Below are positions 5,149-55,077 of a stretch of 64,000 bases of DNA, piece by piece. The notes beneath the pieces are model-generated. The model saw only the letters and a list, made by a program, of their open reading frames with translations, was not told where the DNA came from and made no database searches. The position numbers and the translations under genes were made by a program. The DNA comes from Actinomadura luteofluorescens (GTDB taxonomy: Bacteria; Actinomycetota; Actinomycetes; Streptosporangiales; Streptosporangiaceae), in assembly GCF_013409365.1 (NCBI RefSeq), contig NZ_JACCBA010000001.1, positions 5,828,001-5,892,000 of the forward strand, in the 5' to 3' direction. Positions within the stretch are counted from its first letter, which is position 1. Each line of letters starts with the position of its first letter.

Positions 5149-5330
5149 AGCGGCTCCCTCCTGAGGTGTGAGACATCTTCTCCGGGACCCTGACAGTCAA
5201 ACGGGGCGCTCTGTGGATTGCGCTCCGGAGTGACCTAGACCATTCTGGGTCTCGCCTACGATGGGCATCGTACGTGTGGTGTGCGCGCCGCCTGGAGCGG
5301 TGACCCACGATCTGCAAGGAGCCTTCGAGA

Positions 5331-8198
<2,868 letters not shown>

Positions 8199-8230
8199 GG
8201 CGCCTGGAAGCACGCACGGAACGCGCTGAA

Positions 8231-8258
8231 GCGGCCTCCCGACGCCTCGGGAGGCCGC
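8231..8258 (+). terminator. Hairpin terminator after secA
   Basis: GCGGCCTCCC (8231-8240) pairs perfectly with GGGAGGCCGC (8249-8258) across an 8-base loop, 32 bases after the secA stop. There is no clear U-run after it, as is usual in high-GC actinobacteria. It also faces the convergent Rv3235-like gene and may serve both. Confidence 0.7.
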
Positions 8259-8261
8259 TTC

Positions 8262-8394
8262 CGCATGTCAGGGCCGTCTCCGCCTGCCGGGCCCGCTCTC
8301 GCGCGCCAGGGCCCGTTCCCGCGCATCCGGCCCGCTCTCGCGCATCCGGCCCGCTCTCGCGCGCCAGGGCCCGTTCCCGCGTGTCAGGGCGCGG
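8262..8394 (+). repeat. Degenerate 19-bp tandem array between secA and the convergent Rv3235-like gene
   Basis: Six to seven units of about 19-21 bp are present, with consensus CGCATCCGGCCCGCTCTCG alternating with CGCGCCAGGGCCCGTTCCC. The right-hand unit includes the stop codon of the convergent gene (TCA at 8384-8386 on the plus strand). The left-most unit also preserves that TCA in the same context, so the array looks like repeated copying of that gene's 3' end. Confidence 0.8.
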
Positions 8395-17224: not shown

Positions 17225-17719
17225 TCAGCCGGCGACCTGCCAGCGGTTCCCGTGCCCCCGCAGGACGAAGCTGGCGGCGAGCAGGCCGCCGGGCCGGGCG
17301 GGGGCGCCCTTCCACCGCAGGTGCTCGAACCGGACGGTGCACTCCCCGGCGCCGGGCCCCTGCTCGCAGGTCGGGACGGTCACGCCGCGCAGCGCGGCGA
17401 GGTCCTGAGGGCGCAGCCTCGCGCGGGCCCGGCCGAGCCCTGAACGGCAGCGGCCGGGCCCGCCGAACACGCGCCGCTCGTAGCCGGGCGCCAGATACGC
17501 GCACGCTCTGGCGTTGCCCGCCGCCAGCCCGCGCAGGTACTTGTAGAGCGCCAGCCGCGCCGGGAGCGTCTGCCGCGCCGGCGCGGCGGGGGAGGCCGCG
17601 GCGGGACGGGAGTCGCCGGGCTCGGGGGTGAGCGGCGGCATCGTGACCTCGTTCCCGCCCCCGCAGGCCGCCATCAGCGGGAGCAGCGTCAGGGCGGCGA
17701 GGGACGGGCGGACGCGCAC
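17225..17719 (-). CDS. Putative lipoprotein, unknown function
   Basis: The 164-residue protein starts at GTG 17719 behind AGGAGG. It has a short positively charged N-terminus and a lipobox-like LLPLMAACGGG, so it is probably anchored outside the membrane. The mature part opens with a Pro/Ala/Ser spacer, then a small domain (LPARLALYKYLRGLAAGNAR, CAYLAPGYERRVFG, CTVRFEHLRW) with four cysteines after the lipid Cys. The pattern resembles NTF2-like lipoproteins of actinobacteria, but I do not recognise a specific family. Confidence 0.7.
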   Translation of the reverse strand: MRVRPSLAALTLLPLMAACGGGNEVTMPPLTPEPGDSRPAAASPAAPARQTLPARLALYKYLRGLAAGNARACAYLAPGYERRVFGGPGRCRSGLGRARARLRPQDLAALRGVTVPTCEQGPGAGECTVRFEHLRWKGAPARPGGLLAASFVLRGHGNRWQVAG

Positions 17720-22872: not shown

Positions 22873-22960
22873 CACCGCAAGCGAACCGCTGCCCCCCACC
22901 TCATCCCGCGATCCCGACGACACCGGCCACCACAACAACCCCGCAACAACCTGAGTGGCC

Positions 22961-23101
22961 GCGATCGCGTCCGAAGGCAGATTCGAGCGAAGCAAGAATC
23001 TGATCGCGCAGCGAGCCGCCAGGCGAGCCGGAGCGATGCCAGCGATCGCCGCGGTGTCTGACGATGGAGGGCCCTCCGGGCCCGAAGGAGGAGGGCACCG
23101 C
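22961..23101 (+). repeat. Interspersed structured repeat, copy A
   Basis: This is a member of a five-copy family (others at 38245-38385, 38411-38552, 38998-39078, 39162-39303). From 5' to 3' it has GCGATCGC, a CAGATTC/GAATCTG hairpin (22978-22984/22996-23002), an ATCGC/GCGAT stem, a second GCGATCGC, then a hairpin whose outer arms GCGGTGTC (23051-23058) and GGCACCGC (23094-23101) enclose conserved GACGATGGA and GAAGGAGGA bulges and a GGGCC/GGCCC inner stem. It follows murQ and precedes the convergent acyl-CoA dehydrogenase. Similarity to copy E extends left to about 22936. Confidence 0.9.
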
Positions 23102-23114
23102 AATAGGCACAGCA

Positions 23115-23139
23115 GGGCCCTCCGGGCCCGAAGGAGGAG
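23115..23139 (+). repeat. Duplicated tail of interspersed repeat copy A
   Basis: The GGGCCCTCCGGGCCC hairpin and its GAAGGAGGAG flank are repeated 22 bases after copy A. The duplicate ends in AAGGAGGAGAGAA followed by ATG CAA TAA at 23144-23152, a strong ribosome site before a two-codon reading frame. This may be chance. Confidence 0.75.
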
Positions 23140-23153
23140 AGAAATGCAATAAA

Positions 23154-24359
23154 TCAGCGCTCGTACCTACGGAGTTCCTGGCGGGCCACGGTGCGGACGT
23201 GGACCTCGTCGGGGCCGTCGAAGATGCGCATCGCGCGGACCCAGGAGTACATCGCCGCCAGCGGGGTGTCGTCGGAGACGCCGGCGGCGCCGTGCACCTG
23301 GATCGCGCGGTCGAGGACCTCGTGGGCGATGCGCGGCACGACCACCTTGATCGCGGCGATCTCCGTCCGCGCGCCCCGGGCCCCGTGCCGGTCGATCAGC
23401 CAGGCGGTCTTGAGGGTCAGCAGCCGGGCCTGCTCGATCGCCATCCGCGACTCGGCGACCTGCTCCCGGACGACGCCCTGCCGGGCCAGCGGCCCGCCGA
23501 AGGCCTCGCGCGACAGGGCGCGGCGGCACATCAGCTCCAGCGCCCGCTCCGCCATGCCGAGCGCCCGCATGCAGTGGTGGATGCGGCCGGGCCCGAGGCG
23601 CGCCTGCGCGATCATGAATCCGTCGCCCTCGGCCGCGACGAGGTTGGACACCGGTACCCGGACGTCCTCGAAGAGGATCTCCGAGTGGCCGTGCTGGTCC
23701 TGGTAGCCGAACACGGGCAGGTGCCGGACGACCGTCACGCCCGGGGTGTCGCGCGGCACGAGCACCTGCGACTGCTGCCGGTGCGGCGGCCCCCCGGGGT
23801 CGGTCTTGCCCATCACGATGAAGATCTTGCAGCGCTCGTCGGCGGCGCCGGTGATGAACCACTTGCGGCCGTTGATCACGTACTCGTCGCCGTCCCGGAC
23901 GATCGAGGTGGTGATGTTGGTGGCGTCGGAGGAGGCGACCTCGGGCTCGGTCATCGCGAACGCGCTGCGGATCTCGCCGTCCAGCAGGGGCCTGAGCCAG
24001 CGCTCCTTCTGCTCGTCCGTCCCGAACATGTGCAGGACTTCCATGTTCCCGGTGTCGGGCGCCGCGCAGTTGACCGCCTCGGGCGCGAGGTCGGGCGACC
24101 GTCCGGTCAGCTCGGCGAGGGTCGCGTACTCCAGGTTGGACAGGCCGGAGACGTCCGGCAGGAAGAGGTTCCACAGGCCGCGCTCGCGCGCCTCGGCCTT
24201 CAACTCCTCGACGACCGGCGGCAGCGCGTGCGGGTCGTTCTCCGCCCGCCAGGCGGCGTAGACGGGCTCGGCCGGGTAGACGCGCGCCTCCATGAACTCC
24301 TGGAGCCGGTCCCGGTAGTCGCGTGCCTTCGGGCTGAGTTCGAAGTCCATGGGCCGCAT
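23154..24359 (-). CDS. Acyl-CoA dehydrogenase family protein (ACAD10/11-like)
   Basis: The 401-residue flavoprotein has the acyl-CoA dehydrogenase three-domain layout. The FAD/substrate segment FAMTEPEVASSDATNITTSI lies in the middle domain, INGRKWFITGAADERCKIFI follows, and the C-terminal helical domain holds AIQVHGAAGVSDDTPLAAMY. It is close to the ACAD10/ACAD11 branch, which acts on long or hydroxylated/branched acyl-CoAs; the substrate is unknown. ATG 24359 or 24350 may start it. It is divergent from a HAD gene resembling the HAD domain fused to this enzyme in ACAD10. Confidence 0.9.
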   Translation of the reverse strand: MRPMDFELSPKARDYRDRLQEFMEARVYPAEPVYAAWRAENDPHALPPVVEELKAEARERGLWNLFLPDVSGLSNLEYATLAELTGRSPDLAPEAVNCAAPDTGNMEVLHMFGTDEQKERWLRPLLDGEIRSAFAMTEPEVASSDATNITTSIVRDGDEYVINGRKWFITGAADERCKIFIVMGKTDPGGPPHRQQSQVLVPRDTPGVTVVRHLPVFGYQDQHGHSEILFEDVRVPVSNLVAAEGDGFMIAQARLGPGRIHHCMRALGMAERALELMCRRALSREAFGGPLARQGVVREQVAESRMAIEQARLLTLKTAWLIDRHGARGARTEIAAIKVVVPRIAHEVLDRAIQVHGAAGVSDDTPLAAMYSWVRAMRIFDGPDEVHVRTVARQELRRYER

Positions 24360-36400: not shown

Positions 36401-38246
36401 GGTCGCCGCGTTCGACCACCGGCACATCTTCATCGACCCCGACCCGGACGCCGCCGCCTCGTTCGCCGAGCGCCGCCGCCTCTTCGAACTGCCGCGCAGC
36501 AGCTGGGCCGACTACGACACCTCGCTGATCTCCAAGGGCGGCGGCGTGTTCCCCCGCACCGTCAAGTCGATCCAGATCACCCCGCAGATGCGGGCGGTGC
36601 TCGGGCTCGGCGACGGCGTGAAGACCCTTCCGCCCTTCGAGCTGATCCGGGCCATCCTGCGCGCCCCGGTCGACCTGCTGTGGAACGGCGGCATCGGCAC
36701 CTACGTCAAGTCGTCCTTCGAGAACAACGCCGACGTCGGTGACAAGGCCAACGACCCCGTCCGCGTGGACGGCGCTGAACTGCACTGCAAGGTCGTCGGC
36801 GAGGGCGGCAACCTCGGCGTGACGCAGCTCGGCCGCATCGAGTTCGCCCGCGGCGGCGGCCTGATCAACACCGACTTCATCGACAACTCCGCGGGCGTCG
36901 ACACCTCCGACCACGAGGTCAACATCAAGATCCTGCTCGACCAGGCGGTGCGGGACGGCGAACTGGCCGGCAAGCAGCGCGACGGCCTGCTCTACGAGAT
37001 GACCGACGAGGTCGGGCGGCTCGTCCTTCGCGACAACTACGCGCAGAACGTGGTGCTCGCCGCCGCCCGCGCGCAGGCCCCCGCGATGCTGCACGTCCAC
37101 GCCCGCTACATGCGCAAGCTGGAACGCGACGGCCGCCTGAAGCGCCGCCTGGAGGCCCTGCCGGACGACAAGGCCCTCGCCGAGCGGCGCCAGTCCGGCC
37201 TCGGGCTGACCAGCCCCGAGTTCTCGGTGCTGCTCGCCTACGCCAAACTCGCCCTGGACGCCGACCTCGTCGCCTCCGACCTCGCCGAAGACCCCTACCT
37301 GGAGTCGTGGCTGGTCGACTACTTCCCGACCCCGCTGCGCGAACGGTTCCGCCCCCACATGGACCGGCACCCGCTCCGCCGCGAGATCATCACGACGGCC
37401 GTGGTGAACGACGTGGTCAACGCCAGCGGCTGCACGTTCGTGTTCCGGATGAACGAGGAGACCGGCGCCTCCTCCTCCGACATCGCCCGCGCCTACCTCG
37501 TCGCCCGCGACGTCTTCCAGATGCCGCGATTCTGGCGATCGGTGGAAAGCCTGTCGCACCACGTCGAGGAGTCGACACAGGTCGCGATGCTGCTGGAGGC
37601 CCGCAAGCTCACCGAACGCGGCGCCCGCTGGCTCCTGCACAACCGGCGCCCCCCGTTCGACATCCAGGAGACGATCGACTTCTTTCGCGGCGGCGCCGCC
37701 ACCCTCAGCGAACACCTCTCGAAGCTGCTCGTCGGCCTGGACCTGGCCGCCTTCGAACAGCGCCGCGACGGCTTCGCCGAACTCGGCGTCCCGGACGAAC
37801 TCGCCGAACAATGCGCCACGTTCGTCCCCGCCTACTCCACCTTCGACGTCGTCGGCATAGCCCACGACACCCAACGCCCGGTGGAGGAAGTAGCCGAAAT
37901 CTACTTCGACCTGGCCGACCGCCTCCAACTGTCCCGCCTGCGCGAACGCATCATCGCGCTACCCCGCGACGACAAGTGGCGCTCCATGGCCCGCTCCGCC
38001 CTCCGCGACGACCTGTACGCCGCCCACTCCGCCCTCACCCGCGACGTCCTCGTCACCAGCGAACCCGGAGGCAACCCCGAAGAACGGATGATCTACTGGG
38101 CGGAAAAGAACAAACCAGCCGTCCGACGAGCCCAGCAGACACTGAGCGAAATCTGGGAAAGCGACAGCTTCGACCTGGCAACCCTCTCAGTAGCCCTAGG
38201 CGCCATCCGCACCCTCGTAACCTCCAGCAGCCTGCCCGCTGAATAG
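33414..38246 (+). CDS. NAD-dependent glutamate dehydrogenase, large (GDH) type
   Basis: This very large enzyme of about 1610 residues deaminates glutamate to 2-oxoglutarate with NAD+. The N-terminal half holds ACT-like regulatory regions. The dehydrogenase core reads GSVARGGLRWSDRREDFRTE, then KAQAVKNTVIVPAGAKGGFV with the catalytic and substrate Lys residues, and the Rossmann part VGIGDMSGDVFGNGMLL. I chose ATG 33414 for its well-spaced AAGGGGAG; ATG 33390 is the alternative. It fits proline/glutamate catabolism together with pruA. Its stop codon overlaps the outer arm of repeat copy B. Confidence 0.95.
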   Translation: MSGMLDQEKDDLLRRAAETCARRPDARGDAEEVLAYLRLYYRQVAREDLLERDPAGICGPALAHRALAEERPQGRAKVRVFTPTLEEDGWNPGRTVVQVVTDDMPFLVDSVTMELSRHQLATQLIVHPLLGVDRDVAGHLRAFRGKRDSDADVDESWMHIEVDRTTDQALLDVLEKDLIRVLQDVRVAVEDEPKMRARAHEIATAIQEVPPPLSDKELAEGVELLDWLADGHFTFLGYRDYTLTDDGTALRPEPGSGLGILRMDKRESAGFAALPPEVREKATEKRLLVLTKANSRSTVHRPLYLDYIGVKKFDASGEVVGERRFLGLFTHVAYSESIAHVPVLRPKLDEVLERAGFTPDSYDGQDLIEILESYPRDELFQISVDDLLKISLGVLRLRERRQLKLFLRKDLYGRFMSCMVYLPRDRYTTKVRLRVQDLLREAFEGVSVDYSANVTESNLARLHVVVRGERGRPLPDVDVPELEERLADATRSWEDDLADAIVAQCGEERSGTLGRSFGEAFPEGYKADFPARTAVSDLRRLDALDEAVDTSIDLYEPAGAGPGERRLKIYRMGEPISLSRVLPLLQNMGVEVIDERPYEINTSDGRRFWIYDLGLRYVPPADVPEEAVKDLFQDAFTVLWRGDIENDGFNALVLHVGLTWWQAMILRAYALYLRQAGAAFSKRYFEEVLLRNASITRLIIRLWESRLDPTLQGGEEERSDGITEEIRGKLDDVASLDEDRILRSYLALVQATLRTNHYQNKPYLAMKFDPAGIPDLPLPRPTYEIFVYSPKVEGVHLRFGSVARGGLRWSDRREDFRTEILGLAKAQAVKNTVIVPAGAKGGFVGKQLPDPSVDREAWQKAGIDCYKDFISGLLDLTDNLVDGKVVPPPNVVRHDGDDTYMVVAADKGTATFSDIANGVAADYGFWLGDAFASGGSVGYDHKGMGITARGAWESVKYHFRALGKDIQNEDFTVVGIGDMSGDVFGNGMLLSEHIRLVAAFDHRHIFIDPDPDAAASFAERRRLFELPRSSWADYDTSLISKGGGVFPRTVKSIQITPQMRAVLGLGDGVKTLPPFELIRAILRAPVDLLWNGGIGTYVKSSFENNADVGDKANDPVRVDGAELHCKVVGEGGNLGVTQLGRIEFARGGGLINTDFIDNSAGVDTSDHEVNIKILLDQAVRDGELAGKQRDGLLYEMTDEVGRLVLRDNYAQNVVLAAARAQAPAMLHVHARYMRKLERDGRLKRRLEALPDDKALAERRQSGLGLTSPEFSVLLAYAKLALDADLVASDLAEDPYLESWLVDYFPTPLRERFRPHMDRHPLRREIITTAVVNDVVNASGCTFVFRMNEETGASSSDIARAYLVARDVFQMPRFWRSVESLSHHVEESTQVAMLLEARKLTERGARWLLHNRRPPFDIQETIDFFRGGAATLSEHLSKLLVGLDLAAFEQRRDGFAELGVPDELAEQCATFVPAYSTFDVVGIAHDTQRPVEEVAEIYFDLADRLQLSRLRERIIALPRDDKWRSMARSALRDDLYAAHSALTRDVLVTSEPGGNPEERMIYWAEKNKPAVRRAQQTLSEIWESDSFDLATLSVALGAIRTLVTSSSLPAE

Positions 38247-38385
38247 CTTTTTCTCCTCCTTCGGGCCTGGCGGCCCTCCATCGTCGAAAAAGCTGGGCGA
38301 TCGCTGGCATCGCTTCGACTCGCCTTGCGGCTCGCTGCGCGATCAGATTCTTGCTTCGCTCGAATCTGCCTTCGGACGCGATCGC
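38245..38385 (-). repeat. Interspersed structured repeat, copy B
   Basis: This copy is inverted relative to copy A. Its outer terminal-hairpin arms are AGCTTTTT (38245-38252) and AAAAAGCT (38287-38294), wholly different in sequence from other copies yet perfectly paired. The conserved GACGATGGA and GAAGGAGGA bulges and GGGCC/GGCCC inner stem are intact. The CAGATTC/GAATCTG hairpin (plus-strand about 38344-38368) is also intact. It begins within the glutamate dehydrogenase stop codon, so its hairpin may terminate that transcript. Confidence 0.9.
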
Positions 38386-38410
38386 AATCATTGGGCCCGC
38401 GGTGCTTATG

Positions 38411-38552
38411 GCAGTGCCCTCCTCCTTCGGGCCCGGAGGGCCCTCCATCGTCGGGCACCGCGGGCGATCGCTGGCATCGCTTCGACTCGCCTGGCGGCTC
38501 GCTGCGCGATCAGGTTCTCGCTTCGCTCGAACCTGCCTTCGGACGCGATCGC
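38411..38552 (-). repeat. Interspersed structured repeat, copy C
   Basis: Same orientation as copy B, 25 bases further on. The outer arms are GCAGTGCCC (38411-38419) and GGGCACCGC (38453-38461). The internal hairpin is CAGGTTC/GAACCTG, a paired substitution relative to CAGATTC/GAATCTG in copies A, B and E. It lies just left of a gene remnant. Confidence 0.9.
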
Positions 38553-38580
38553 AACCATTGAGCCCGTCGCGTGGTTCACT

Positions 38581-38691
38581 TCAAACCACGCGGCGGGCGC
38601 CCTTGCCCGGGCGCTTGATGAAGGGCGTCCCGAACAGGTAGTGCGTGTCCCACCGGCCGTTGGCGATCTGACGCGGGCGCGCTAGCCACTG
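38581..38691 (-). pseudogene. 3' remnant of an unidentified protein-coding gene
   Basis: On the minus strand an open frame ends at 38581 with a strongly GC-biased third codon position and a protein-like sequence QWLARPRQIANGRWD then THYLFGTPFIKRPGKGARRV. Coding character fades right of about 38692, where the divergent small membrane-protein gene starts, and no start codon with a ribosome site is visible. I read it as a decayed C-terminal fragment, possibly left after recombination at the flanking repeats. The parent family is not recognised. Confidence 0.4.
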
Positions 38692-38712
38692 CCTTTTGCC
38701 GAAAGGACTGCC

Positions 38713-38970
38713 GTGAACCTCGGCATGCGCAAGCTGTGCATATCCCTCGCGCTCTCCCTGGGCTTCAACGTCGCCGCGCTGATCACCTTTCTCCTCCTGG
38801 CAGGCGGCGAGACCGGAGCCATCATCGCCACCGCCCTGGGCGTGGGCACAGGAGCCAGCGGCGTGACCTTAGCGATCATGGCCTCCCACGGCCTCCTGAC
38901 TCCACCCCACCCGCCCACTAGCTTCGAGAACCCGTCCCGGCGCTATCCGCAGACCCGGCAGCAGCCCTGA
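38713..38970 (+). CDS. Small membrane protein, unknown function
   Basis: The 85-residue protein starts at GTG 38713 with GAAAGGA upstream. One hydrophobic segment (LCISLALSLGFNVAALITFL) and a second (GVGTGASGVTLAIMASHGLL) flank a short GGETG turn, giving a helical hairpin, and a Pro/Arg/Gln tail follows. No known domain is evident. It lies within the repeat-rich patch between copies C and D. Confidence 0.6.
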   Translation: MNLGMRKLCISLALSLGFNVAALITFLLLAGGETGAIIATALGVGTGASGVTLAIMASHGLLTPPHPPTSFENPSRRYPQTRQQP

Positions 38971-38997
38971 GCCCGCCCACCGCCAAGGGCCTCGCCG

Positions 38998-39078
38998 GCG
39001 ATCGCGTCCGAAGGCAGGTTCAAGCGAAGCGAGAACCTCATCGCGCAGCGAGCCGCCAAGGCGAGTCGAAGCGATGCC
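38998..39078 (+). repeat. Interspersed structured repeat, copy D (truncated)
   Basis: Only the 5' two-thirds of the element are present: GCGATCGC, the CAGGTTC/GAACCTC hairpin (six of seven pairs kept), and the ATCGC/GCGAT stem, ending at GCGATGCC. The terminal covarying hairpin is missing. It begins 28 bases after the small membrane-protein gene. Confidence 0.85.
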
Positions 39079-39161
39079 GTTGCCCGCACCTTCTCTTAAA
39101 GAGGACCACCGGGCGCAACAAGCTCAGCCGATACAGCAACCCCGCAGCAACCTGAGGGGCC

Positions 39162-39303
39162 GCGATCGCGTCCGAAGGCAGATTCGAGCGAAGCAAGAAT
39201 CTGATCGCGCAGCGAGCCGCAAGGCGAGTCGGAGCGATGCCAGCGATCGCCCGCGGTGCTCGACGATGGAGGGCCGCCAAGGCCCGAAGGAGGAGAGCAC
39301 TGC
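39162..39303 (+). repeat. Interspersed structured repeat, copy E
   Basis: A full copy in the same orientation as A. The outer arms are GCGGTGCT (39253-39260) and AGCACTGC (39296-39303), paired with one G-T wobble, and the inner stem is GGGCC/GGCCC around GCCAA. Similarity to copy A extends left to about 39137 (CAACCCCGCA...). The rest of the 38971-39388 gap contains no recognised gene. Confidence 0.9.
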
Positions 39304-39388
39304 AGAGAAAACTGCAAAAAACCATCGGACACCGGCCGGTTCCGCCGCAGCGGTCAGGAGGGGCGGGCCGGCCGGCATCCGACGGGGT

Positions 39389-40372
39389 TCAGGAGCCCTG
39401 GGCGGTGACGGCTTTGCGGTACATGCCGCTGATGGTGGCTCGGCCTTTGGGCGGGATGGTGGCCAGGTACTGCACGAGGACGGTGGTGTCGAGGCGCGTC
39501 CGGGCGGTGGTGGATGGGGCGAGGCCGACGAGGTCGCCGCTTACGGCGAGTTTGCCTCGTTGGGCGGCCGAGTAGGCCTCGTTCTGTTTGAGGACGTACC
39601 AGACGACGGCTCCGCGGTCTTTGGTGCGGAGCCCGTAGACCTTGTACTCGGCGGGAGAGAAGCGGGACGAGAGTGTGACGCCGCGGGTGGCGAGGGTCTT
39701 CTCGCCTGCTTTGAGCGCCTTGTAGGTTTCGCTGGTTTTCGCCCCGTCGGCGAGGACGGAGGCTCCGGAGGCGCGGGGCCCGTCGGTGAGGAGGGCGGCG
39801 TGGGCCTTCGGGAGCTTCGCGGGGGCGACCGCGAGGTCTTCGACGTCGGGGGCGACCGGGGTGGCGTACCCCTGCGGGTCGAGCGCGACGTGGGCGAGGG
39901 CGAGTTCGGACGGGTACGGGTCGGCGGCGAGCAGCCAGGGCGCGTTCTCGCTGGACTGGGTGAACAGCAGCGCGTGCCGCAGGGCCTGCTTGCCCTTGCC
40001 GCTGACGGCGTCGGCCGCGAACCAGCGCGGGTGGCCGGTCAGCCGCGGGATGTAGAACGTGGTGTGGCTGAAGACGACCTTGGGTGGACGCTGCCGGACG
40101 GCGCGGCGGAGCTTGAGGGCGGCGACGTCCATGGTGAGCTGCGGGTCGGTCTCGACGGTGCGCAGTGTTCTGCCGCTGAATCTGAGCCCTGCCTGGTTCA
40201 TGCCCGAGGCGAAGGACGTGAGTACCTGCTGTGCCTGCTCTTTGGTGAGGGCGGGCGGCCCCTGCGGCTTCCCCGGGGCCGCGGAGGACGTGTTGTTGCC
40301 GGAGCAGCCGGTGCTGACGGCGGCGGCCAGCAGGCCGGGTAGGAGTAGTGGGACGAGAGTGCGTGCTGCCAT
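39389..40372 (-). CDS. Putative lipoprotein, paralogue of the gene at 41759
   Basis: The 327-residue protein starts at ATG 40372 and has a lipoprotein signal (LLLPGLLAAAVSTGCSGN). Its mature part aligns by eye with the lipoprotein at 41759-42814: TFYIPRLTGHPRWFAADA against LYVPKLRDAAYPQWFVVSVD, and LDPQGYATPVAPD against IDAAGYATAMSAE. Another shared landmark is YGLRTKDRGAVVWYVLKQNE. Probable surface-exposed protein of unknown function. A 28-bp palindrome lies 46 bases upstream. Confidence 0.78.
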   Translation of the reverse strand: MAARTLVPLLLPGLLAAAVSTGCSGNNTSSAAPGKPQGPPALTKEQAQQVLTSFASGMNQAGLRFSGRTLRTVETDPQLTMDVAALKLRRAVRQRPPKVVFSHTTFYIPRLTGHPRWFAADAVSGKGKQALRHALLFTQSSENAPWLLAADPYPSELALAHVALDPQGYATPVAPDVEDLAVAPAKLPKAHAALLTDGPRASGASVLADGAKTSETYKALKAGEKTLATRGVTLSSRFSPAEYKVYGLRTKDRGAVVWYVLKQNEAYSAAQRGKLAVSGDLVGLAPSTTARTRLDTTVLVQYLATIPPKGRATISGMYRKAVTAQGS

Positions 40373-40417
40373 GAGGCCCCCCGAATGGCGACGTTGGTCC
40401 GGACCACCCGGCATCCT

Positions 40418-40445
40418 CGCAGAGTGATCATGTGATCACTCTGCG
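40418..40445. promoter_or_regulatory. 28-bp near-perfect palindrome between prfB and the lipoprotein gene
   Basis: CGCAGAGTGATCA (40418-40430) and TGATCACTCTGCG (40433-40445) are exact reverse complements separated by two bases. It lies 53 bases after the prfB stop and 46 before the lipoprotein start. The two-base gap and lack of a T-run fit a protein-binding operator better than a terminator. Confidence 0.65.
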
Positions 40446-40498
40446 AACACGAAAGTCGGCCGTAAAAGGTGGGGGACCGGTCAGGGGACGGTCTCGGG

Positions 40499-41608
40499 TC
40501 AGGCGCTCTCCTGCTGGCGCAGCCAGCGGATCTCGGCCTCGATGAACTCGTCGATGTCGCCGTCCAGGACCGCGGAGGTGTTGCCGACCTCGACGCCGGT
40601 GCGCAGATCCTTGACGATCTTGAACGGGTGCAGCACGTAGTTGCGGATCTGCGTGCCCCAGCTCGTGGTGCCCTCGCCGCGCAGTTCGGAGAGCTTCTCC
40701 GCCTCTTCCTTGCGCTTGCGCTCCAGCAGCTTGGCCTGCAGGACGTTCATGGCCGTGGCCTTGTTCTGCAGCTGGCTGCGCTCGTTCTGGCAGGACACGA
40801 CGATGCCGCTCGGGATGTGGGTGATCCGCACGGCGGAGTCGGTCGTGTTGACGCCCTGGCCGCCGGGCCCCGACGACCGGTAGACGTCGATCCGCAGTTC
40901 GCTCTCGTCGATCTCGACGTGGTCGCTCTGCTCCACCACGGGGACGACGTCCAGGCCCGCGAACGACGTCTGCCGCCGGCCCTGGTTGTCGAACGGGGAG
41001 ATCCGGATGAGCCGGTGGGTGCCGTGCTCGCCGCGCAGCGTGCCGTAGGCGTAGGGGGCCTTCACGGCGAAGGTGGTCGACTTGATCCCGGCCTCTTCGG
41101 CGTAGGACGTGTCGTAGACCTCCGTCGGGTAGCCGTGCCGCTCGGCCCAGCGCAGGTACATCCGCCGCAGCTGCTCGGCCCAGTCGGCCGCGTCCACCCC
41201 GCCGGCCTGGGCGTTGATGGTGACCAGCGCCTCGCGGGCGTCGTACTCGCCCGACATGAGCGTGCGCACCTCGAGCTGCTGGACGGCCTTGTGCAGCGCC
41301 GCCAGCTCCTCGTCGGCCTCGGTGCGCGTGTCGGCGTCGTCCATCTCCCGGGCCATCTCGTACAGCGTGGCGGCGTCCTCCAGCCGCTGCCGCAGGCCCT
41401 CGACCCGGTTGAGCTCGCTCTCCAGGTACGACAGGCGGCGCGTCACCCCCTGGGCGCGCTCCTGGTCGCTCCACAGGTCGGGGTCGGCCGACTGCTCGCG
41501 CAGTTCGGCGATGTCGCGGCGCATGGTGTCGAGGTCCAGCACCTGCTCGATGCTGGACAGGGTCGAGCCGAGCTCCTTGAGCTGTTCTTCGGGTTCGATG
41601 CCTGCCAC
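40499..41608 (-). CDS. prfB: Peptide chain release factor 2
   Basis: The 369-residue class I release factor recognises UGA and UAA. It has the codon-recognition motif SPF in [15 protein letters not shown] and the peptidyl-hydrolysis motif GGQ in [18 protein letters not shown]. It reads as one uninterrupted frame, so the autoregulatory +1 frameshift known from many bacteria is absent. The start [13 protein letters not shown] is usual for actinobacteria. It sits beside ftsE/ftsX, a common gene order. Confidence 0.96.
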
Positions 41609-49250: not shown

Positions 49251-49620
49251 GGGGGTGACCGGCTTCGACTTCGGTCGTTCGAGCCAGGGGAAGCGGGTCG
49301 AGGGTTGCTGTCGTGACCTCGTAAATCCTGTGACAGCAAACCAATAACTGCCAACAAGAAGCAGTCCGAGTTCGCCCTCGCCGCCTGAGCGAGGAGCGAA
49401 CTCTGTCAGCCCGGGCGCGTCTCCGTCCCGGGGTCTGGCATCGCAAGGAGACTCCACCTACCGGTCCGGTCGCGGGCCCGGCAGGGACATCTAACAGCGA
49501 CTGAGTCCGTCGGCGACACGCCTGCGTGAGCGCCGGGACTGAGAAAACACTAAGCAGGCTGCACCCGGAGAAGCCCTGACCCATCACCGAAGGACGCGGG
49601 TTCGATTCCCGCCACCTCCA
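49251..49620 (+). ncRNA. ssrA: Transfer-messenger RNA (tmRNA)
   Basis: The 5' end GGGGGTGACCGGCTTCGACT and the 3' end GGGTTCGATTCCCGCCACCT plus CCA are standard tmRNA termini. GGGGGTG (49251-49257) pairs with CACCTCC in the acceptor stem, and a T-arm GCGGG-TTCGATT-CCCGC (49596-49612) is intact. The tag frame resumes at GCC 49350 and encodes ANKKQSEFALAA, ending with TGA at 49386-49388; the LAA end is the usual protease degron. With SmpB it rescues stalled ribosomes and marks the products for proteolysis. No encoded CCA follows the discriminator A at 49620. Confidence 0.95.
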
Positions 49621-49627
49621 CGGCAAG

Positions 49628-53001: not shown

Positions 53002-55077
53002 CTAGATGATGTCTTCGGGGAGGAGGGTGGTGAGTTGTTCGGTGGTGAGTTCGGCGCCGGTGTTGGCGAGTTGTTCGGTGCGGCGGGCGTGGGCGGTCAC
53101 CGCGGAACGGAAGAGTTTGTCGATCTCGCGTCCGTTGCCCACCTGGAATCGGTCGCGGTTGGCCGCCAGGTAGGTGGTGAGGGCCTGCTGGGTGGGTTCC
53201 GGGACGCGGTAGTCGGCCGTCTTGGCCTTGCCCAGGAAGATCGAGACCAGGCCGTCGACCTCGTAGGGGGAGAAGGTGAGGGTGCGCGCGAAACGCGACG
53301 CCAGGCCCGGGTTGGTGGCCAGGAACCCCTTCATCTCCGAGGTGTATCCGGCCGCGATGACGATGATCTCGTCGCGGTGGTCCTCCATGAGTTTGACGAG
53401 GGTGTCGATGGCCTCCTGCCCGAAGTCGTTGCCTGATCCGGCCTGGCGCGACAGCGTGTAGGCCTCGTCGATGAACAGGACGCCGCCGCGGGCGCGTTCG
53501 AAGACCTCGCTGGTCTTCTGTGCGGTGTGTCCGACGTACTGTCCGACCAGGTCGAGGCGTGCGGCTTCGACGACCTGGCCTTGTGCCAGGACGCCCAGGG
53601 CGGTGAGGAGTTCTCCGTAGAGGCGTGCGACGGTGGTCTTGCCGGTGCCGGGGGGGCCGGCGAAGATCAGGTGGCCGGTGAAGGGTTCGGCTTCGAGTCC
53701 GGCGGCGCGGCGGCGCCGGGCCGAGGCGATGAGGTCGAGCAGGTCGCGGATGTCGCGTTTGACCTCGTCCAGTCCGGTCATCGCCGCCAGCCGCGCCAGC
53801 AGGGCGGTGACCTGGTCGGGGTCGCGGGCCTCTCCGAACCGGGCGGCCAGGCCGGTGTCGACGTCGAGGTCTTCGGCGATCAGCCGGGACAGTTCCTCGC
53901 CGGAGGGCAGTTCTTCCATGTCGGCCAGGCGTTGTGCCTGCCGTTCCACCGCCGCTTCGAAGACGCGGCGTGCGGCGCGGCCGTTGCCGAACGAGGCGTC
54001 GCGCTTCATGGACGTGAAGTGCGCCAAGAGTGCTTGCCGTGCGCTGTCCGCTAGCTGGTAGCCGTCCTTGTCGGCCTGTGTTCCGACGATCTGGACGAGT
54101 TCGGCGGGGCTGTAGTTCTCGAACTCCACCGTCCGGGAGAACCGCGAACTCAACCCCGGGTTGGCGGACAGGAACTCGCGCATCTCCGCCGAGTATCCGG
54201 CAGCGATCACCACGACCTCGTCGCGGTGGTCCTCCATCAGCTTCACCAGGGTGTCGATGGCCTCCTGACCGAAGTCGGTGCCGGTCGCCTTGCGCGACAG
54301 CGTGTAGGCCTCGTCGATGAACAGCACACCGCCGCGAGCCCGGTCGAACACCTCGGTCGTGCGCAGCGCCGTCCCGCCGATGTTCTCCGACACCAGATCG
54401 GCCCGGCTGACCTCGACCACCTGGCCCTTCTCCACCACACCCAGCGCTGCGAGGATGCCGCCGTACAGCCGCGCCACGGTGGTCTTACCAGTGCCGGGCG
54501 GGCCCGCGAAGACCATGTGCCGGCCCTTCGCCGAACCCGGCGGCAGGCCCGCCAACCGCCGCTGCTCGGCCACCTTCTGCACTTTCGCCAGAATGCGGAT
54601 CTCACGCTTGACCCCGGCCAGACCGATCATCGCGTCCAACTCGGCCAGCAGCACGTCCGCCGACGGCCCGCCGACCTTCTTCGGCGCGGGCGGCGCGGCC
54701 TTGGGCTCCGCGGGCGCATGGCTGACGGGCTCTGCGGGCTTCTGGCTCGCGGGCTCTGCGGGCTTCTTACTCGCGGGCTCGGCCGGTTCCTTGCTCTTGG
54801 GCTCGGCCGGCGCCTGCTTCTCGGCCTTGGCGGTCGCGGCGGCGAAATCGAAGTCGAACAGGTCGGGCCTTGCGTTGCCGACGCTCGTCAGGTCCTCGAT
54901 CTCCACGCTCGCCCCGAGGCTGGCGAGGACGCCCCGGCTGTGGTTGCCGGCCAGCGTGCAGCCGCGGAGGGTGAGGTGGCCCTCCGGTTCCACGTTCACG
55001 CCGGAGAGCTTGCTGCCGGTGATCGTCATGCCGTCCAGCAGGACGCGGGGATCGCCGCCCTTCAGCCCGACGCCGGA
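53002..55077 (-). CDS. Double CbxX/SpoVK-type AAA+ ATPase portion of a frameshifted beta-helix/AAA protein
   Basis: This frame holds the last beta-helix coils (VLLDGMTITGSKLSGVNVEP), an Ala/Glu/Pro/Lys-rich linker with PAEPAS-type repeats, and two AAA+ domains. Each has Walker A FAGPPGTGKTTVARLYG and Walker B GGVLFIDEAYTLSR, the CbxX/CfqX (SpoVK, EccA-like) pattern. Such ATPases remodel protein complexes; EccA relatives serve type VII secretion. The frame continues the gene that starts at 56042 and is cut off from it by a one-base deletion near 55078-55083. Confidence 0.85.
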   Translation of the reverse strand, partial: SGVGLKGGDPRVLLDGMTITGSKLSGVNVEPEGHLTLRGCTLAGNHSRGVLASLGASVEIEDLTSVGNARPDLFDFDFAAATAKAEKQAPAEPKSKEPAEPASKKPAEPASQKPAEPVSHAPAEPKAAPPAPKKVGGPSADVLLAELDAMIGLAGVKREIRILAKVQKVAEQRRLAGLPPGSAKGRHMVFAGPPGTGKTTVARLYGGILAALGVVEKGQVVEVSRADLVSENIGGTALRTTEVFDRARGGVLFIDEAYTLSRKATGTDFGQEAIDTLVKLMEDHRDEVVVIAAGYSAEMREFLSANPGLSSRFSRTVEFENYSPAELVQIVGTQADKDGYQLADSARQALLAHFTSMKRDASFGNGRAARRVFEAAVERQAQRLADMEELPSGEELSRLIAEDLDVDTGLAARFGEARDPDQVTALLARLAAMTGLDEVKRDIRDLLDLIASARRRRAAGLEAEPFTGHLIFAGPPGTGKTTVARLYGELLTALGVLAQGQVVEAARLDLVGQYVGHTAQKTSEVFERARGGVLFIDEAYTLSRQAGSGNDFGQEAIDTLVKLMEDHRDEIIVIAAGYTSEMKGFLATNPGLASRFARTLTFSPYEVDGLVSIFLGKAKTADYRVPEPTQQALTTYLAANRDRFQVGNGREIDKLFRSAVTAHARRTEQLANTGAELTTEQLTTLLPEDII

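Follow-up and report, generated by a model that had tools for sequence, protein, structure and literature searches.

What are the folded repeats that recur beside genes in Actinomadura luteofluorescens, and what do they do there? The question arises from a stretch of 64,000 nucleotides (NZ_JACCBA010000001.1, positions 5,828,001 to 5,892,000; "the window"), which is part of the single contig that makes up this 9.62 Mb genome. An earlier note, made from the letters of the window alone, had described five copies (A to E) of a structured repeat with covarying stems. Its coordinates were borne out: B and C lie on the minus strand, D is truncated, E is on the plus strand, and A lies elsewhere in the window (Table 1). 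We find that the element is a genus-specific family of folded gene-end repeats and that, by the tests made, it is not a repetitive extragenic palindrome (REP) of the RAYT type. Tentatively, and with somewhat less than even confidence, we read it as a cassette that is strand-specific, folded, and placed at the 3' ends of genes, probably a terminator or insulator, with homogenised copies and outward exposure of single strands.

The core of a full copy, in element orientation, spans 142 nt and consists of module 1 and a terminal hairpin. Module 1 (about 89 nt) is closed by GCGATCGC and is predicted to hold two inner hairpins; by eye, there is also a third, tiny hairpin, CC-GAA-GG. The terminal hairpin (51 nt) lies 3' of module 1, and its arms enclose GACGATGGA and GAAGGAGGA. 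In the positional consensus of 67 A. luteofluorescens copies, about 42 nt of C/A-rich leader and a short AATAAACAC tail are also conserved. As these lie outside the core, the repeat unit is about 190 nt long: leader, branched module 1, terminal hairpin, and tail. The leader consensus is about ACCTCAGCCnnCACCGCAACCACGCAACAACCTCAATGGTT, and 51 of the 67 copies have at least 12 of 18 matches to the leader motif.

How widespread is the element? Within A. luteofluorescens, blastn gave 55 matches from the best 40 of 141 candidates, and an exact pattern for module 2 occurred 56 times (27 plus, 29 minus), as compared to 0 for the reversed pattern. The earlier note had suggested a search with a covariance model. 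Our model (R1), which was built from 43 A. luteofluorescens copies, has at least 80 matches in this genome and further matches in relatives. Forty stretches of the genome contain 77 distinct matches, including partial ones (82 rows minus the five window copies that were seen twice). R1 matched 18 of 24 genus members, A. luteofluorescens included, and none of 16 other genomes. With stricter filters, it matched 40 of 297 genomes of the order, and all 40 are among the 56 listed members of the genus; the 241 genomes that are not on that list (237 of them reported only in bulk) had no match with these filters. Carrier genomes have from 1 to at least 80 matches. A scan of GTDB genomes with an exact module-1 pattern gave at least 117 stretches, and among the matches listed (80 titles), 79 are from Actinomadura and one is from Spirillospora albida. 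(The collections overlap, and some genomes occur in two of them.) In the genomes examined, the element is confined to Actinomadura sensu lato, with up to dozens of copies per genome, and the plasmids and phages that were searched had no match. The earlier note knew of no described family that fits, and a scan of the window against Rfam at the gathering score gave only the tmRNA and raiA, neither of them at the element. A literature search that did not reach subscription papers found no title on such an element or on a GC-skew switch in Actinomadura.

The fold of the element is conserved, as the earlier note had proposed when it argued that structure rather than sequence is preserved. The terminal arms that it quoted are present and, by our own reading, pair in all four full copies (with one G-U pair each in A, C, and E, and none in B), and the paired change from CAGATTC/GAATCTG to CAGGTTC/GAACCTG is real. 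RNAalifold predicted 40 pairs from 43 A. luteofluorescens copies, with changes on both sides at 9 of them. For relatives, we aligned 135 distinct copies, which come from 100 of the 117 loci of the GTDB pattern scan. Here 31 of the 40 pairs change on both sides, with at least one such pair in every helix, and the covariation score is 0.258 (shuffles gave 0.082, and slid partners 0.043 or less); these counts are inflated by kinship among the sequences. None of 500 shuffles and no slid control reached 31 pairs. Arms that fail to pair in further copies would have spoken against the earlier note, and 97.0% of the 5192 pair cells across all helices are standard pairs, as compared to 27-34% with slid partners and 86% in shuffles. 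Because these loci were found with the exact module-1 pattern and aligned with R1, the alignment leans towards the R1 structure, most strongly over the part that the pattern itself covers. In the outer stem of module 1, which joins strands about 75 nt apart, 3 of 7 pairs change on both sides. By eye, variants of this stem include GCGATTGC/GCAATCGC and GTGATCGC/GCGATCAC, and the tiny hairpin appears as GC-GAA-GC. In some copies the terminal hairpin has unrelated sequence yet is still paired, and a few of these hairpins are nearly perfect. (These are L241 4877-5019, L226 5089-5228, L235 4609-4748, and L101 2402-2547, with further copies at L167 2843-2981, L100 1372-1509, and L176 7236-7378; the unrelated hairpin of L241 is kept in L200, at an apparently orthologous site.)

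The element folds best on its own strand. Folded as RNA, copy E has a z-score of -3.56 on the element strand and -0.95 on the reverse strand; folded as DNA, the element strand scores -2.18. For randomly drawn copies (30 from among the full-length copies of A. luteofluorescens and 50 from among those of relatives), the mean z-scores were -3.69 and -4.05 on the element strand and -1.48 and -1.65 on the reverse strand, and the element strand was the more stable one in 30 of 30 and 48 of 50 copies. The pair cells include 284 G-U and 89 A-C combinations (546 and 385 in shuffles). The excess of G-U is confined to helix P4 (141 versus 16 A-C) and the outer hairpin arms (100 versus 31), which together hold 241 G-U cells; there is no bias in P1 (16 versus 21), P3 (18 versus 14), or the inner hairpin stem (9 versus 7). 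Structure is kept through compensatory change, with the best fold on the element strand, and we infer that the active molecule may be this strand, either as RNA or as single-stranded DNA.

Where do the copies lie? Genes were called by a simple codon-usage method, which misses some genes and gives rough starts, and members of arrays were counted singly here and for the T-runs, third positions, gene configurations, and fold z-scores. We considered 71 copies from A. luteofluorescens (the 77 without 6 small partial matches). Of these, 54 face an opposite-strand gene: 30 lie between convergent genes, and 24 face the opposite-strand gene in a tandem pair. As background, 72 of 382 neighbouring gene pairs at the same loci and in the window are convergent. 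Among the sampled genomes, 197 of 281 copies face an opposite-strand gene, and a gene ends within 15 nt of the copy on the opposite strand in 85 cases and on the same strand in 9. The hairpin end tends to adjoin the stop codons of opposite-strand genes. We compared 20 of the 40 distinct anchor genes in A. luteofluorescens to NCBIfam; the matches above cut-off include an extracytoplasmic function (ECF) sigma factor (TIGR02947), adenosylhomocysteinase, formate dehydrogenase, DNA polymerase I, and an acyl-CoA ligase, and several of the 20 had no match.

Our best lead to the function is a T-run after module 1. A run of three or more is present in 18 of 22 A. luteofluorescens copies that adjoin an opposite stop codon and in 14 of 44 other copies. 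The tendency is weaker in relatives (20 of 59 stop-adjoining copies versus 23 of 118 others). We infer that, read in the element direction, module 1 and its T-run resemble an intrinsic terminator and sit at the point at which antisense transcription would run into the neighbouring gene. The earlier note had listed a transcript-end structure among its possibilities, which fits both the placement by stop codons and the T-run of the stop-adjoining copies. Rho-type loading at the C/A-rich leader is no more than a lead (C/G ratio of 2.79 at -40 to -21 in 44 A. luteofluorescens copies).

Many positions of the element are shared between species. Apart from the AHCY and polA loci, the relatives' loci that we scanned with R1 were those found by the module-1 pattern or by R1 itself. 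For 28 of the 51 A. luteofluorescens copies with an anchor gene (40 distinct genes), an ortholog among the sampled loci has the element at its end. Conversely, 72 of 176 clusters from other genomes have an A. luteofluorescens element at the orthologous place (some genomes and sites are counted repeatedly), and 17 of the 176 have a matching flank without an element there. At AHCY, 11 of 23 relatives have an R1 match, G013 has a fragment at a contig end (by eye), and 11 have none. In G009 (L277), the element-free site behind AHCY has a leftover TTTCATTGC that closely resembles the element tail in reverse, which is what the deletion of an element would leave. At polA, R1 matches 4 of 23 relatives, and 7 have a second folded repeat of similar layout, whole or partial, which we call family II. 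It consists of two hairpins within an outer stem like CGCGAGCGCG/CGCGCTCGC, followed by a terminal hairpin. In eight alignments of filled and empty orthologous sites, chosen among the matches listed, gain or loss is evident, and neither terminal inverted repeats nor target duplications are obvious; the flanks are too diverged to place exact junctions. We do not favour the idea that partial units are 5'-truncated retrocopies, because units without the other end also exist.

The type of terminal hairpin follows lineage. The alpha type, with GACGATGGA/GAAGGAGGA, is found in 58 of 69 full copies of A. luteofluorescens, and 3 of the remaining 11 are near-alpha. Beta types account for 8 of 8 sampled copies in G005 and 8 of 11 in G020. 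A. luteofluorescens and the beta-type genomes nevertheless have sites in common among the sampled loci (we inspected four hand-picked sites). Common positions together with a lineage-wide change of type favour concerted change, by gene conversion or replacement in place, over free jumping, so these sequence comparisons point to concerted change of dispersed copies. Alternatively, the common sites may reflect repeated insertion at hot spots.

On the element strand, mean GC skew switches sign at the copies. Across 55 clusters in A. luteofluorescens, the mean skew was -0.218 in the 200 nt upstream (a bin that includes the leader) and +0.147 in the 200 nt downstream, with standard errors of 0.015. 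The same bins for 122 clusters of named relatives gave -0.198 and +0.124. (Clusters of mixed orientation were dropped from these profiles, and not every cluster reaches every bin.) In A. luteofluorescens, the skew decays to about 0 by about 2 kb downstream and about 3 kb upstream. Control sites had a skew of at most about 0.03 (303 intergenic sites and 32 hairpins), and 26 convergent gene pairs had no switch. Downstream skew is higher in larger arrays:.090 for one unit (n=41),.178 for two (n=10), and.195 for three (n=4). With the conserved leader and tail, the placement by stop codons, and the sites shared across species, this switch goes beyond what the earlier note had described.

Several other causes of the skew can be set aside. 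Gene orientation is ruled out, as the switch is alike in all four gene configurations (upstream -0.05 to -0.09, downstream +0.09 to +0.12; 206 copies, with sites near a locus end dropped). Hairpins as such do not cause it, given the 32 negative controls. As to replication direction, the skew did not differ consistently between genome halves and strands, where the halves are guessed replichores (upstream -0.119, -0.051, -0.051, and -0.048; downstream.117,.114,.144, and.089). The shift is mainly at third codon positions, which leads us to reject selection on proteins. Downstream, on the element strand of A. luteofluorescens and named loci, T at third positions goes from.017-.019 to.035-.044 and A from.017-.018 to.009-.011, and C goes down and G goes up by about.1 each. 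Upstream, A, C, and G mirror the downstream change, and T is nearly constant. Deamination of an exposed strand that runs outward would give this pattern, except for the absent change in T upstream. By our reasoning, if 3' tails left by resection were deaminated, the skew should have the opposite sign.

Is the skew a consequence of the element? In the right flank of orthologous sites, skew was.099 at filled and.058 at empty sites and was higher at the filled site in 23 of 31 cases; the empty class is defined by gap length and includes several sites from one gene. Where both orthologs are filled, skew is equal (.119 versus.124, 84 sites). The third-position bias of AHCY is.359 with the element (12 genomes) and.233 without (11), and that of polA is.558 with the element (4),.334 with family II (7), and.196 with neither (12), although the ranges overlap and ancestry is shared. 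The element is likely, but not proved, to cause the skew. We also think it possible, with considerable doubt, that each copy is a point of recurrent outward DNA opening or copying in both directions (by strand displacement, break-induced synthesis, or R-loops). A bacterial chromosome would then carry dozens of spots that resemble miniature origins and that influence neutral mutation over 1-3 kb of flanking sequence, and this activity would also homogenise the repeats in place.

If the element is a gene-end cassette, then RNA of the element strand (or single-stranded DNA) would be its active form, and it would end transcription that otherwise runs antisense into the neighbouring gene. Module 1 and the T-run of the hairpin arm would act as the terminator, and the terminal hairpin would serve transcripts that arrive from the gene side. 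Copies would be multiplied and homogenised by recombination or by the machinery of a mobile element. On either side, the strand that runs away from the element would be repeatedly exposed as a single strand, giving the C-to-T and A-to-G skew.

A number of results do not fit this proposal well. For 10 of the 71 A. luteofluorescens copies, the flanking genes are both co-oriented with the copy, another 7 lie between divergent genes, and 5 of the 71 overlap a called gene; a role at 3' ends is not obvious in any of these cases. The T-run is absent from 30 of 44 non-adjoining copies in A. luteofluorescens and from 39 of 59 stop-adjoining copies in relatives. A terminator scan of a piece of the window found 1 site, as compared to 1.1 in shuffles (the site is the end of module 1 and the T-run of copy B). 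As for the skew, the upstream value is -.064 with one unit, -.063 with two, and -.117 with three, with no rise from one to two, and the five A. luteofluorescens copies of family II show no consistent skew. Support from orthologs is partial: the left flanks of filled and empty sites differ little (-.062 versus -.049, in the expected direction at 17 of 31 sites), and of the six genomes that are discordant between AHCY and polA, four behave as predicted (G007 by a trivial margin) and two do the opposite.

The strongest rival is that the element is a non-autonomous mobile repeat with REP- or MITE-like behaviour (MITE, miniature inverted-repeat transposable element), which a transposase copies as a folded single strand; gene ends would be tolerated insertion sites, and transposition intermediates would give the skew. 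This would account for the range from 1 to at least 80 matches per carrier genome, the tandem arrays and partial units, the sites at which one species has a copy and another has none, the lineage-specific hairpin types, and the strand favoured in folding. We nevertheless consider it unlikely. A search of A. luteofluorescens for the Y1 transposase (PF01797) at E ≤ 0.001 gave 0 matches, while 5 of 14 control genomes had one, so a classical REP/RAYT element, one form of the REP/MITE-like option in the earlier note, was not supported. RVT_1, the reverse transcriptase that a retroelement or group II intron derivative would call for, had 0 matches in both A. luteofluorescens and G020, which are copy-rich, and 23 of 60 genus genomes have one. 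(The IS91, IS607, TnpB, DDE, and other transposase families were not searched.) Also, the plasmids and phages searched gave no match, no target duplication is obvious in the eight alignments, and the many positions common to several species are unlike free jumping.

Less probable still, the element might be a bidirectional source of antisense transcripts, with outward R-loops or transcription bubbles producing the skew. A signature on the outward strand in both directions, its decay over about 1-3 kb, and the higher downstream skew with more units would all be expected. However, a scan of 38100-39450 for sigma-70-type promoters, which covers actinobacterial promoters in part, gave 0 sites (0.2 in shuffles), and by eye there is no fixed -10 motif in the flanking consensus. 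Finally, template switching (quasi-palindrome correction) could keep the arms complementary without selection for structure, and arms that vary yet pair and near-perfect hairpins of unrelated sequence are what it would leave, but we think it very improbable given the both-side changes in every helix (including the outer stem of module 1, with its distant strands), the G-U pairs that persist in the hairpin arms, and the dependence of the T-run on position.

Table 1. Positions of the element, its parts, and family II, in the window or in the named loci.
Feature	Sequence	Position	Strand	Remarks
Copy A, full	window	22961..23103	+	module 1 at 22961-23049, then terminal hairpin; genes convergent on either side (plus-strand gene end 22872, minus-strand gene end 23154)
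Leader of copy A, C/A-rich	window	22919..22960	+	from sequence and positional information content (67 A. luteofluorescens copies)
Additional partial hairpin unit 3' of copy A	window	23114..23148	+	about 5 nt from the opposite-strand gene end at 23154
Copy B, full	window	38245..38385	-	AT-rich arms AGCTTTTT/AAAAAGCT; plus-strand gene ends at 38246, its stop-codon region overlapped by the hairpin end
Copy C, full	window	38411..38552	-	tandem partner of B
Copy D, module 1 only, without terminal hairpin	window	38998..39078	+	shortened match 38998-39107 in the model scan
Leader of copy E	window	39120..39161	+	from sequence compared with the consensus of 67 A. luteofluorescens copies
Copy E, full	window	39162..39303	+	module 1 39162-39250; terminal hairpin 39253-39303
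Module-1 hairpin CAGATTC...GAATCTG, copy E	window	39179..39203	+	second stem of the earlier note
Local GC-skew switch at the B-E cluster	window	37001..41000	.	-0.167, -0.154 (37-39 kb); +0.167, +0.095 (39-41 kb)
Family II at polA 3' end	L319, L322, L324, L325	1297-1496		
Family II at polA 3' end	L320, L326	2256-2455		
Family II at polA 3' end, terminal half only	L323	2268-2467		
Family II, A. luteofluorescens	L212	~7560-7780		directly after TAG
Family II, A. luteofluorescens	L227	~6440-6640		directly after TAG
Family II, A. luteofluorescens	L228	~5320-5530		directly after TAG
Family II, A. luteofluorescens	L246	~8100-8320		directly after TAG
Family II, A. luteofluorescens	L247	~17340-17550		directly after TAG

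The window has three other features of note: the raiA RNA motif at 991-1252 (Rfam RF03072, 143.6 bits), the tmRNA gene at 49251-49623 (Rfam RF00023), and a direct repeat of about 390 nt at 53282-53673 and 54131-54519 (74-81% identity, 846-849 bp spacing).

The element offers a well-bounded system: one genus sensu lato, up to dozens of copies per genome, and both filled and empty orthologous sites. In it, the conservation of structure can be studied side by side with the concerted change of dispersed copies and with a local strand asymmetry. If the element causes the skew, then bacterial gene ends undergo a strand-opening process that has gone unrecognised; if it is an antisense insulator, then it is a dedicated answer to transcription that enters genes from their 3' side.

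How does the element compare to known systems? REP, BIME, and REPIN sequences, with RAYT, have many structured intergenic copies, arrays, and lineage-specific types, and the element is likewise multi-copy, structured, intergenic, arranged in arrays, and typed by lineage. However, a REP is a palindrome of 20-40 bp (PMC3733652), whereas the element is branched and about 190 nt long, with a leader besides its 142-nt core. It also differs from REP/RAYT systems in the lack of a Y1 transposase match in A. luteofluorescens and in the GC-skew switch in its flanks. MITEs and other small mobile repeats such as ERIC and Correia are short, non-coding, multi-copy, and taxon-limited, as is the element; in the eight alignments, whose diverged flanks blur the exact junctions, neither the terminal inverted repeats nor the target duplication of a MITE is evident. 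The intrinsic terminators of high-GC bacteria, including U-poor ones, are strong stem-loops beside stop codons, as the element is. A study of Streptomyces clavuligerus reports highly structured transcript ends of two kinds, 353 U-lacking and 182 U-rich (PMC8269248). The element differs from such terminators in that its copies form a single recurrent sequence family, in which the leader and module 1 are conserved and one orientation relative to the gene is preferred; its role in termination is a prediction. The third-position shift at the element is about 0.1-0.2, as compared to a residual with a size of.005 to.015 in those parts of the fetched stretches that lie away from elements. Replication origins are also marked by a switch in GC skew, and the switch at the element has the same sign and is two-sided, but it occurs dozens of times per chromosome and reaches a few kb each time.

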